From NCBI GenBank assembly GCA_020852075.1, contig JADZBN010000212.1, forward strand, positions 1-38,725: a stretch of 38,725 bases of DNA. Reading direction: 5' to 3'. Below the pieces are notes generated by a model. That model did not search any database and was not told the origin of the DNA. It worked only from the letters and a program-made list of their open reading frames with translations. This document shows positions 9,522 through 15,477 of the stretch, one piece after another. Source of the stretch: Bacteroidia bacterium (GTDB lineage: Bacteria > Bacteroidota > Bacteroidia > AKYH767-A > 2013-40CM-41-45). Within the stretch, counting starts at the first letter, position 1, and the number at the start of each line of letters is the position of its first letter. Position numbers and translations under genes: made by a program.

Positions 9522-10757
9522 TCAGTTTTGAACCTTCATCAGCTTTTTAGTGCAGGTTTTACTGCCGGTATTCACCGAAATAAAGTACATGCCCGCGGGA
9601 ATCCGGTTCAGGCTGATGACCGTGTGACTCAGTGCAGGAATTGTGTACGATTCAGAAAATAATTCTTTACCTGTGACATCACGTACCGTAATTTTATGAA
9701 TCCTCTCTCTACCTGCATCCACCTGTACCATCGTCGAAACGGGATTCGGATACACTGATACGGGATTCAGGTTCAGATACGGCAAGGGGCCGGTCCACAG
9801 GTTTTCATCGAAGCGGACTACTCCCTGTGATTCCGTGCCTGCCCATACAAGGCCAGTCCTTTCCACGGCAACGGAAAATACGGCATCATCAGGTACTCCG
9901 CTGTTGGAGGTGTTCCAGAAATAGAAATCATTGTTCACTCTTTTCACAATGCCTTTGTCGTTTGATCCCATGTAATCATTCCAGAGTGAATCATGAGTGA
10001 GTGAGGTAAGGCTGTTGGTCGGAATAAGCGACCCCGATGTGTTATAGGAAAACCAGGAGCCCTGGTAGAAACGAACCAAGGCGCCGGTAGGGCATGCCAT
10101 CCACAGGATGCCGGAAGTGTCGAGAAACATCTGAAGGATGGAATTATCCGGGAAGCCATTTACCGGAACATTCCAGTTGGTCATGGCGGTTCTGTTCATT
10201 TTTACCAGGCCACCATTGATGGTTCCCAGCCAGGTAACTGAATCATTTTCCTGTACGGCTGACGTTATATTATTCACCGGGAGGGACGAATTCAATATGT
10301 CATAATTTTCAAAAAGGGTATCATTGAAAATACTCAGGCCGCTGTCGGTGCAGATCCATTTTCTGCCCGAACGGTCAATCATCACACTGCGTACATAGTC
10401 CGACGGCATACCTGAATTTGAATGATTGTAAACGGTCCAGTTTGTTCCGTCGAATTTGCAGATTCCGCCGTTTTGTGTGGAGATCCAGGCATTGCCCAGG
10501 CGGTCAAAGGCAACATGCTTGACAGAGTTGTCGGGAATTCCCGAATTGGAAGTCTGATAGACCTCCCAGGTTGTATCGTTGTAAATGGCCAGGCCGTACT
10601 CGGTGCAGAACCACTTTCGCCCGAGGGAATCTATGGCGATATACCTGCACTGGTTATCGGGAAGAGGAGAATTAAAACGGTTAAATACCGTAAAGGTCTG
10701 CTGTCCCTGTGTTGCCAGAGACAGGAACAGAAAAATCATCCAAATACTGTTTTTCAT
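9522..10757 (-). CDS. Secreted two-component-type beta-propeller protein with T9SS sorting domain
   Basis: 411 aa. A signal peptide (MKNSIWMIFLFLSLATQGQQ) is followed by about six repeats of the Reg_prop/two-component propeller type, each with the pattern PDN...I..D..G..W..T..GL..(F/Y)(N/D).T.W. Examples are DSLGRKWFCTEYGLAIYNDT, DRLGNAWISTQNGG and DRSGRKWICTDSGL. The C-terminal ~85 residues (SVYPNPVSTMVQVD, then GKELFSES, IPAGMYFI and the basic KLMKVQN end) form a type A T9SS sorting domain. There is no kinase or DNA-binding part, so it is a stand-alone surface or secreted propeller, probably binding a ligand or glycan. The promoter core sits 4 nt before the ATG. Confidence 0.88.
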   Translation of the reverse strand: MKNSIWMIFLFLSLATQGQQTFTVFNRFNSPLPDNQCRYIAIDSLGRKWFCTEYGLAIYNDTTWEVYQTSNSGIPDNSVKHVAFDRLGNAWISTQNGGICKFDGTNWTVYNHSNSGMPSDYVRSVMIDRSGRKWICTDSGLSIFNDTLFENYDILNSSLPVNNITSAVQENDSVTWLGTINGGLVKMNRTAMTNWNVPVNGFPDNSILQMFLDTSGILWMACPTGALVRFYQGSWFSYNTSGSLIPTNSLTSLTHDSLWNDYMGSNDKGIVKRVNNDFYFWNTSNSGVPDDAVFSVAVERTGLVWAGTESQGVVRFDENLWTGPLPYLNLNPVSVYPNPVSTMVQVDAGRERIHKITVRDVTGKELFSESYTIPALSHTVISLNRIPAGMYFISVNTGSKTCTKKLMKVQN

Positions 10758-10883: not shown

Positions 10884-12953
10884 TTACTGGATAATCAGTT
10901 TATGATAGAAATTTTTCCCTTCGGAAAGAATATGTATGCTGTAAACTCCTGCTGCCGTACCTGATACATCCAGCATTTCCTCGTAAGAGCCTTTCAGCTC
11001 ACCGAGGTGGCGGGAAATGACCACATTTCCGATGGCATCTGTCAATTCGAGCAGGGGAACATCCGTGTCGTTCCATATAAAGGAAACGGTTACATTGTTA
11101 TGGGCAGGATTCGGATAGGCCTTTAGTGAGTTCAGTTCATTTACCCCTGCAACCAGTGTCGGGGAAGAAACATAAGCGATGGCTTCGGTACGCGAACTGA
11201 TGCAGGAATTGTCAGGAAGTCTTACATCCCAGTCATAAAAGAAATAATAGTATCCGGCACCGGCGGTGGTTCCGGTGATAGTACAAAAATTATCAATGGT
11301 GAAGGGAAAGCCGATACCGGATCCGGGATTGTTCCGGTACATATCCCCGCCGCTGCGTGTAAGCTGGTAACCCGTACCCGGTGCAACGGAGAAATCAAGG
11401 ACAAGGGTGTTCAATCCGGCGGTAACGGTTACGTTTTGTGACTGAAGAAGGTTGTTCTGGTTGTCACGGAGTTCGATGGTTCGGGTTCCTGCAGTCTGAA
11501 CATAAACATTCACCGCATGCAGTATAAACGGGTTGAAACAATCGAACACCAGCGACTGATCGCCTGTGTAATATCCCCCTCCCGCTATGGTATTGTCCGC
11601 CGGACCGACATGAAACATACTGCCTGCGTGGTTCTCCTGGCTTTCGGCCCAGAACGAAGTGGTGGTGCTGATGAGAGGTGTCGTGAATGTATTTCCGGTT
11701 CCGAGGAGATTTCCGCCCACGGGTGCGTCATACCAGTTGATGGCACCGCCGGCGGTAGCGCTCAGTGTTGCCTGGCCGGCAACCGGAATCGTATCATCAG
11801 TGGTAGCGGGTGCTGCGGGGTGAGCAAACACATTTACGGTTACGGGCAGGGAGGCGCCGGTGCCGCAGGCATTGGTAACCTGGACGGTATAGGTTCCACC
11901 CTGGCTAATGGTTGTAGTTGATGTGGTGTCTCCGTTGCTCCACAGGTAGGATTCTCCCGGATTTGTCTGGGCAGCACTTAACGTTACGGTTTCGCCCTGA
12001 CATAAATTCAGTGCAGAATTGGCAATGGCGACATTCACCGGATTGGTAGCAGGATTGGGTTCCTGTTTGGTAAGAGTAAAAGGAACAGCAAAGATGTTGT
12101 TGTTCTCATTTTCCTCAACGAAATTATTGTTTGGATCTACCTCGCAGACAATCCAGTATTCTCCGTTGCAAATACCGGGAGGAATGTCAATCCACATTCC
12201 GTCAAGGCTGGTCCAGTAGATATCCACATACCCTGAGCTGATTCCCTGTACGGTGGGAGAACAGTTGTATCCTCCGCCACCCAGTCCGTAATTCGGGAAA
12301 TTACTGTTGCTGTTGAGCGAATTTCCAAGGCTGTCAAGGCAGTGATCCGGATAGCCTGCACAAGTGCCGTAGTCTTCCACACAGAACGCCAGTTTGGTTC
12401 CTGTGCCGATGACCTGCCAGTGCAGAGGATTGGGATCAAGGGTATCACGAATGCGGAGGCTGTAATTGCCCCAGTTGTCAACGTGCATGTGGCCGTGGGT
12501 GGGATGGTAGGTCATGGTGCCTGCAGCCCTGTCGTACCAGGTCATGTTGTTTCCGCCCTTGTGATAGATGCGCTGGTTGATCAGAATTTTAGGATAGGAA
12601 ATGCCATCAGGGCAAATGCTGGGGGCGGTTCCCACAAATGTATCGGTACCGCATACAAATATGTTCGTTGCCCGTAATTCAAGAGGTCCGAATCCGGTAT
12701 TGGGTGTGGAAACCGTAATCTTTAATCTTCCGTCATCGGCACCGTTTCCGGTTTGGGAATATTCGATCACACCATAGGTTGCCCCCAGATCATAAAACGG
12801 AGGGTGACCAACCTCAATATCGGGCAGCAGGTCGCAGTCGGTCTGGCCTGGAATTTTGCATTGGCAAGAGGTGGCGTTGGTAGTAGTGCATTGGGAGAAG
12901 GAAATAACGGGTAATAGAAGAACCGTTACTACGCTGAGTAGAACTTTACACAT
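10884..12953 (-). CDS. T9SS-exported lysyl-oxidase-like protein
   Basis: 689 aa with a signal peptide (1-20). Residues about 40-290 match the lysyl oxidase domain. The copper histidine cluster is THGHMH (H153, H155, H157). GTKLAFCVED gives K187, and VDIYWTSLDGMWIDI gives Y246. By alignment from memory, K187 and Y246 correspond to the Lys and Tyr that form the lysyl tyrosylquinone cofactor in animal LOX. The domain closes with EVDPNNNFVEENENNN, the usual LOX end. Then come two Ig-like modules (about 305-370 and 375-435), a jelly-roll-like region, and a T9SS sorting domain (LKAYPNPAHNNV ... FYHKLIIQ). It would be a cell-surface copper amine oxidase acting on lysines or other primary amines; the substrate is unknown. 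A strong terminator follows. Confidence 0.9.
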   Translation of the reverse strand: MCKVLLSVVTVLLLPVISFSQCTTTNATSCQCKIPGQTDCDLLPDIEVGHPPFYDLGATYGVIEYSQTGNGADDGRLKITVSTPNTGFGPLELRATNIFVCGTDTFVGTAPSICPDGISYPKILINQRIYHKGGNNMTWYDRAAGTMTYHPTHGHMHVDNWGNYSLRIRDTLDPNPLHWQVIGTGTKLAFCVEDYGTCAGYPDHCLDSLGNSLNSNSNFPNYGLGGGGYNCSPTVQGISSGYVDIYWTSLDGMWIDIPPGICNGEYWIVCEVDPNNNFVEENENNNIFAVPFTLTKQEPNPATNPVNVAIANSALNLCQGETVTLSAAQTNPGESYLWSNGDTTSTTTISQGGTYTVQVTNACGTGASLPVTVNVFAHPAAPATTDDTIPVAGQATLSATAGGAINWYDAPVGGNLLGTGNTFTTPLISTTTSFWAESQENHAGSMFHVGPADNTIAGGGYYTGDQSLVFDCFNPFILHAVNVYVQTAGTRTIELRDNQNNLLQSQNVTVTAGLNTLVLDFSVAPGTGYQLTRSGGDMYRNNPGSGIGFPFTIDNFCTITGTTAGAGYYYFFYDWDVRLPDNSCISSRTEAIAYVSSPTLVAGVNELNSLKAYPNPAHNNVTVSFIWNDTDVPLLELTDAIGNVVISRHLGELKGSYEEMLDVSGTAAGVYSIHILSEGKNFYHKLIIQ

Positions 12954-14868: not shown

Positions 14869-15477
14869 TCAATTCAAAACGCATCGTGCAACCTGTCTTC
14901 TGTTGCCGGCAATGGCCTCAATCAGATAAATACCTTTTGGAATTTCTCCGGTTTGGATAATTGCTGTGGAGTTTCCGGCAGGATAATTTTCACTATGTCG
15001 TTGAATGATTTTACCGTCCAGATCCATGATACACAGTTGTATTTGTTCGGGCGCTGATAAAACATAGTTCAGCATTATAGCCCCGGAAGGATTACTGTTA
15101 CCTATTGTAAAAAAAACATCTGAAAATTTCATTGAAGGAATTCCTGTACTGCTTGTTGCAGTAATGGTTCCGATCATTCCCATGGAAACGTGCACAGTGC
15201 AGATATAGGAATAGATTCCTTCTTCTGTTACAATGTATGAAAAGGAAGGTGAAGCAGAAGTTATTGGATTATTCCATGAAAGGGCACCAGCAGGTACTGA
15301 ATCAGAAGTGGTTGTATGGTTTCCGTTAACCCAGTTCCAGGTAATGGTATCGCCTACGTTTACAAAAAGATCCTGTGGATCGAATTCAAAGTTTTTCACC
15401 TGAACCACATGGGTGGCGGCTTGCAGCGTGGTGGACAGCAGAAATGCTGTAACCATTGTGAGTAGAGTTGTTTTCAT
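14869..15477 (-). CDS. Secreted type I blue-copper (plastocyanin-like) protein
   Basis: 202 aa. A signal peptide (1-20) is followed by a cupredoxin domain of about 90 residues. VQVKNFEFDPQDLFVNVGDT opens it, the first copper ligand is H54 in NGNHTTTSD, and C93, H96 and M101 lie in YICTVHVSMGM, the classic C-x2-H-x4-M type I site of pseudoazurin/plastocyanin proteins. The remainder (about 115-202) looks like a T9SS sorting domain (MLNYVLSAPEQI, DLDGKIIQRH, IPKGIYLIEA), although it ends in RCVLN rather than a clear basic tail. It should be a small extracellular electron-transfer or copper-binding protein. It lies on the same strand as, but about 195 bp from, the next secreted gene. Confidence 0.9.
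   Translation of the reverse strand: MKTTLLTMVTAFLLSTTLQAATHVVQVKNFEFDPQDLFVNVGDTITWNWVNGNHTTTSDSVPAGALSWNNPITSASPSFSYIVTEEGIYSYICTVHVSMGMIGTITATSSTGIPSMKFSDVFFTIGNSNPSGAIMLNYVLSAPEQIQLCIMDLDGKIIQRHSENYPAGNSTAIIQTGEIPKGIYLIEAIAGNRRQVARCVLN

Follow-up and report, generated by a model that had tools for sequence, protein, structure and literature searches.

A divergent lysyl oxidase-like protein of a Bacteroidia bacterium that retains the complete catalytic residue set and carries a type IX sorting domain

We examined a 38,725-nucleotide contig of a Bacteroidia bacterium (this whole stretch is referred to as the window) in order to ask whether one of its genes encodes a genuine lysyl oxidase (LOX) that is exported by the type IX secretion system (T9SS) and has kept the residues for amine oxidase activity. 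A preliminary description, based on an alignment made by eye, had assigned H153, H155 and H157 to the copper site and K187 and Y246 to the lysyl tyrosylquinone (LTQ) cofactor. All five residues are found at these positions in the translated open reading frame. The features of the gene and of its downstream neighbor are as follows.

10884-12953 (-): open reading frame of the LOX-like protein predicted to be exported by T9SS, 689 aa, ATG start
12894..12953 (-): likely Sec signal peptide, residues 1-20, read by eye
12048..12890 (-): LOX-like catalytic domain, residues 22-302, from domain and profile-profile alignments
12504..12506 (-): H150, at the position of LOXL2 His623 as judged by spacing
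12483..12497 (-): predicted copper-site triplet H153-x-H155-x-H157, aligned with the canonical LOX histidines
12393..12395 (-): K187, predicted LTQ lysine (LOXL2 Lys653), from profile-profile alignment
12381..12383 (-): C191, four residues after K187 (LOXL2 Cys657), from column conservation
12261..12263 (-): C231, 15 residues before Y246 (LOXL2 Cys673), from column conservation
12216..12218 (-): Y246, predicted LTQ tyrosine (LOXL2 Tyr689), within a fully conserved D-x-Y motif, from alignment
12069..12269 (-): the sole part matched by PF01186 (Pfam)
11871..12023 (-): weak PKD/Ig-like domain, residues 311-361 (Pfam, below cut-off)
11634..11819 (-): Ig_7 (CHU_C-associated) domain, residues 379-440 (Pfam)
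10890..11117 (-): T9SS type A sorting domain, residues 613-688 (TIGR04183, PF18962)
9522..10757 (-): neighboring Reg_prop beta-propeller gene with a T9SS tail, 126 nt downstream of the LOX gene

Homology to lysyl oxidase

Pfam assigns the protein a Lysyl_oxidase, an Ig_7 and a Por_Secre_tail domain, and NCBIfam matches the T9SS type A sorting domain only, with no LOX family. The PF01186 match is above the cut-off (35.9 bits, cut-off 20.4) and covers residues 229-294 alone, so that both the histidine triplet and K187 lie outside it. This confinement would be expected if the match were spurious, reflecting a CARDB/Ig-like half found in many surface proteins, with the histidines and the lysine in place by chance; CARDB weakly matches the same stretch, and many of the weak matches in our survey of the class (see below) cover only this region. 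Because the C-terminal half of the catalytic domain resembles CARDB, we cut the domain in two and aligned each part separately with canonical LOX. The His/Lys segment, deprived of the CARDB-like half, still aligns at E 4.4e-7 (residues 120-214) or 9.9e-7 (residues 60-214), and the Tyr segment alone at 4.3e-10, whereas the reversed controls give 0.038, 0.049 and 0.16. On these alignments, the match to LOX is not due to chance and the homology covers both halves of the catalytic domain, leaving a spurious match very hard to credit.

The residue assignments were compared at the level of profiles. An alignment of 35 window-type domains with 16 canonical domains of the type of L001, a paralogue in the same genome (prob 98.2, E 3.8e-14), sets H153/H155/H157, K187 and Y246 on the canonical copper and cofactor positions, and thus bears out the residues picked by eye as well as the LOX-like identity proposed with them. 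Other sets (69 and 18 domains) give E 1.3e-13, with a reversed control at 0.037. When the window-type profile was compared with solved structures, LOXL2 (5ZE3) was matched at E 1.3e-6 and the other three matches were at 0.07 or above. L001 itself aligns with human LOXL2 (5ZE3) at E 1.4e-18 across the histidines, lysine and tyrosine. Judged by these comparisons, the window protein is a true member of the LOX superfamily, of a divergent class, with the full catalytic residue set and a T9SS tail.

Animal LOX and LOXL1-4, represented here by LOXL2 (5ZE3), share with the window protein the H-x-H-x-H copper triplet, an LTQ lysine with a conserved cysteine at the fourth position after it, an LTQ tyrosine within D-x-Y, and the beta half that comes next. 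The K187-C191 spacing (4) equals that of LOXL2 Lys653-Cys657 (4), and the C231-Y246 spacing is 15 versus 16 for Cys673-Tyr689, whereas the stretch between the two cysteines, and with it the Lys-to-Tyr loop, is longer in the window protein (40 residues versus 16). Since Cys657 and Cys673 are reported to form a disulfide in LOXL2 (PMC9180022), a C191-C231 pair, if formed, would hold the Lys-Tyr loop in the same manner. Three further cysteines that are paired in LOXL2 according to the catalytic-domain pairing given in the same report (PMC9180022), Cys625, Cys685 and Cys695, correspond to T152, Y242 and G252. The window protein thus lacks the full set of ten catalytic-domain cysteines in five pairs by which the animal LOX/LOXL subfamily is recognized, and falls outside that subfamily. 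It also has threonine (T186) in place of LOXL2 His652, a position at which only 4 of the 122 window-type domains with a histidine triplet carry His; in LOXL2, the three copper histidines are described as essential for LTQ formation, and a His652 mutant as keeping less than half of the LTQ (PMC9694262). The missing cysteines and the missing histidine both weigh against a copper- and LTQ-dependent enzyme. Unlike the animal proteins, it has neither SRCR domains nor a propeptide and carries Ig_7 and a T9SS tail instead.

The preliminary description had suggested that a model placing K187 and Y246 far apart would refute the assignment. Such a distance would be no clean refutation, because the corresponding residues are reported to be 16.6 Å apart in the solved LOXL2 precursor (PMC9694262). 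Our single-sequence AlphaFold2 model of residues 19-302 is too low in confidence to be used (pLDDT 31.5, pTM 0.23).

Conservation of the cofactor pair and loss of the copper site

From 162 domain hits, 26 were dropped as same-place copies, leaving 136 distinct window-type domains. The LTQ lysine is present in 136/136 and the tyrosine in 135/135 (one further domain is cut by a frame break), so that the other check proposed earlier, for loss of these residues in orthologues, turned up no loss in any homologue. A first set of 69 distinct domains had given 69/69 for Lys and 68/68 for Tyr, with one further domain cut, and the canonical set carries His, Lys and Tyr in 16/16. The copper triplet is complete in 122/136 window-type domains, including the orthologue group of the window protein, while in the other 14 two or all three of the histidines are missing and both Lys and Tyr are retained. 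Because the pair is kept in these 14 domains, its conservation is weak evidence for LTQ or activity; for the same reason, with Lys and Tyr kept in all homologues examined, the tests put forward in the preliminary description discriminate poorly.

H153 and H155 occur together in 122 domains and are missing together from 14, and neither is lost alone; among the His-less domains, one has a gap at 153 and four retain H157. This joint presence or joint loss supports the view that, where present, H153 and H155 behave as one site. H150 is His in 101 of the 122 triplet domains. The C191 column is Cys in 121/122 triplet and 14/14 His-less domains, and the latter retain the conserved cysteines, save for a single serine at C30. 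Thirty columns reach 98% conservation or more among the triplet domains; 24 of them are still invariant in the His-less ones, the six that vary being the three histidines, W161, C30 and I238.

These patterns bear on two other readings of the protein. In the first, it would be a LOX-fold surface protein devoid of oxidase activity, with a binding or surface-layer role, in which K187 and Y246 would have a structural part and metal, if bound, would be incidental. The invariance of Lys and Tyr in all 14 domains with a broken triplet fits such a protein, as does the parallel between their retention and that of the other fixed columns; so does the fact that relatives join the LOX-like domain to Ig_7, PKD, fn3, P-domain and SprB-repeat modules. 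Relaxation would not, however, leave the triplet complete in so large a majority of the domains and throughout the window protein's orthologue group, and we regard this reading as rather unlikely. In the second, the protein would bind copper or zinc without forming LTQ, the triplet having some other use, for instance the capture of copper at the surface. The linked gain or loss of H153 and H155 agrees with a metal site of this kind, but this reading leaves unexplained why Lys and D-x-Y are invariant precisely where the cofactor residues belong, and we consider it improbable. Our preferred reading, a copper- and LTQ-dependent amine oxidase, is probably correct.

The source genome itself encodes a fourth LOX-like, T9SS-tailed protein (L018, G000:C130) that, when aligned to residues 143-163 of the window protein, shows only H157 of the copper triplet and retains Lys and Tyr elsewhere in the domain. 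The His-less forms would either bind metal in another way or use Lys and Tyr for a role beyond LTQ. It is possible, though we think it unlikely, that in a copper-free branch the Lys-Tyr pair serves a purpose not known in LOX, such as forming another kind of cross-link, binding a substrate, or letting the protein act as partner or decoy to the active form. One cell would then export both copper-triplet proteins (the window protein and two others) and a copper-free LOX-fold protein (G000:C130) in which almost all the remaining fixed residues are kept. A 2015 survey reports strictly conserved Lys and Tyr in LOX, and one red alga without the histidine core (Grau-Bove 2015, PMC4448552).

In a tree of 134 of the 136 domains (two shorter than 200 residues were left out), the window protein groups with the orthologues of four genomes of its family (support 97) and, more widely, with two more (support 99), and the 14 His-less domains fall into three patches. 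A topology test was run on 72 of the 136 domains, the others being left out by a hand-made list, with the copper-site columns removed. The resulting tree needs four changes, but the test does not reject one common clade for the 14 (p-AU 0.081); we therefore do not claim several independent losses of the copper site.

Relatives and gene neighborhood

PF01186 matches three places in the source genome: the window gene, L003 (C123) and L001 (G000:C205). L001 encodes a 783-aa protein with a T9SS tail that scores 85.9-88.5 bits, compared with 35.9 for the window protein. It has the same catalytic residues and the same export signal, and differs from the window protein in being nearer to animal LOX, with GHK and extra cysteines.

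Full-length orthologues with 63-67% identity are encoded by four other family genomes, and one with 54% by a fifth. A whole-protein search matches 11/11 family genomes at E 1e-3, many of these matches covering Ig or tail parts only, and PF01186 matches 31/42 genomes of the order. With the domain profile, 111/395 genomes of the class are matched at E 1e-3 and 66/395, counted by hand, at 1e-30 or better, which corresponds to a match across most of the domain. A survey of the phylum at E 1e-20 or better retrieves 3/395 genomes, namely the window's own and two of its class; this sample was drawn unlike that of the class and gives little information on other classes. Scans of genome contigs yielded three loci matching only residues 449-653, 256-336 and 255-295, outside the His/Lys region. 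No usable relative was found in the viral-contig scans and no match in the plasmid search, while PADLOC gave the LOX protein a single weak match, attributable to chance, and the propeller none.

Some relatives have unusual architectures. SprB is a gliding adhesin, and one gene (L055:1-2370(-)) fuses the LOX-like domain to SprB repeats. Genome G005 has 18 places, on 18 contigs, with genes that combine a P-domain, the LOX-like domain, PKD and a T9SS tail (L017, L025, L035, L071-L074, L076-L085 and L087), one of them split over two frames; the architecture was taken from one copy, L017, and some of the 18 may be strain copies, as the assembly is listed with 7% contamination. In these copies H150 is replaced, mostly by Asp.

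The next gene downstream of the LOX gene, on the same strand, is the Reg_prop propeller gene. A propeller gene is present in 9/11 family genomes, and in seven of these nine it is preceded, on the same strand, by a LOX-like gene. In G008 an opposite-strand open reading frame separates the two, in G006 the propeller and the LOX gene are about 6 kb apart, and in G030 (L099) no propeller is found within 1.5 kb after the LOX gene. G004 (L200:3211-5892(-), G004:C117) has an FG-GAP and UnbV_ASPIC gene upstream of the propeller instead of LOX; by sequence, this is a swap of the N-terminal module upon a similar Ig_7/T9SS C-terminal half.

A plastocyanin-like Copper-bind domain with a T9SS-like tail is encoded 2 kb from the LOX gene (14869-15477). 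It would suit a protein that binds metal without LTQ, but no such gene was found near the five orthologues examined (stretches of 19.9 kb; 9.2 kb for L189). We also considered this neighbor as a copper donor and rejected it on account of the same absence. Scans for promoters (12 candidate sites, against 7.0 in shuffled sequences, sd 3.2) and terminators (5 candidate sites, against 4.5, sd 2.4) were of no use for interpretation.

Export, proposed activity and earlier work

The N-terminus has, by eye, a short basic start followed by a hydrophobic core and ISFSQC. The C-terminus scores 31.8 bits with TIGR04183 (cut-off 23) and 44.8 bits with PF18962 (Por_Secre_tail, cut-off 27), and SprA is found in the source genome (580.5 bits, positions 1588-2318 of 2319, cut-off 200); the export signal named in the preliminary description is thereby confirmed as a sorting domain. 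Since the genome contains SprA and 146 T9SS tails, a functional T9SS is very likely present. By hand count, 9 of the 146 tails fall within window positions 3103-35308.

We infer copper binding, LTQ formation, activity and surface location from these features, and propose that the protein is probably a secreted, surface-exported amine oxidase that depends on copper and LTQ and belongs to a divergent LOX class. Its amine oxidase activity is plausible. The Sec signal would take the protein into the periplasm, where it would fold with disulfides, and the C-terminal sorting domain would direct it through T9SS, after which it would either remain bound to the cell surface or be set free. Copper would be bound by H153, H155 and H157, and Y246 would be oxidized and then joined to K187 to form LTQ. 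The enzyme would act on primary amines, either small molecules or the lysine side chains of proteins outside the cell, and oxidize them to aldehydes while releasing ammonia and hydrogen peroxide.

As for substrates, no collagen-like protein was found in the source genome (assembly 85% complete), and cross-linking of the organism's own collagen is accordingly not supported. Because of this result and because the characterized archaeal enzyme is promiscuous, we favor broad oxidation of exposed amines over cross-linking of the collagen type. That enzyme, from Haloterrigena turkmenica, is described as active, copper-dependent, sensitive to 3-aminopropionitrile and relaxed in specificity, and its cultured host is reported to show no amine oxidase activity, the latter speaking against the activity proposed here (PMC6452851). 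As a secreted prokaryotic enzyme it is reported to share the copper histidines and LTQ residues of the family (PMC6452851). Unlike the window protein, it is archaeal and without T9SS, a system not known from archaea.

LOX in Bacteroidetes, the phylum of the window protein, was already published in 2015, with His and Lys/Tyr reported as conserved (Grau-Bove 2015, PMC4448552). According to that survey most prokaryotic members consist of the LOX domain alone, unlike the multidomain window protein (PMC4448552). The earlier remark that prokaryotic LOX homologues are little studied is fair as a general statement, and needs to be tempered by the active archaeal enzyme (PMC6452851) and by these Bacteroidetes sequences. 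In the open-licence literature, we found nothing joining lysyl oxidase with Bacteroidetes and type IX secretion; lysyl oxidase with T9SS led to an oral cancer topic only, and with pseudoenzyme to hypoxic cancer cells only.

Prokaryotic LOX enzymes are without a settled function. The class described here is predicted to be exported by T9SS, counts multiple paralogues per genome and has natural members devoid of the copper site, and would offer a direct test of the separate roles of the copper histidines and the Lys-Tyr pair. It also bears on whether bacteria oxidize or cross-link proteins at their own surface.
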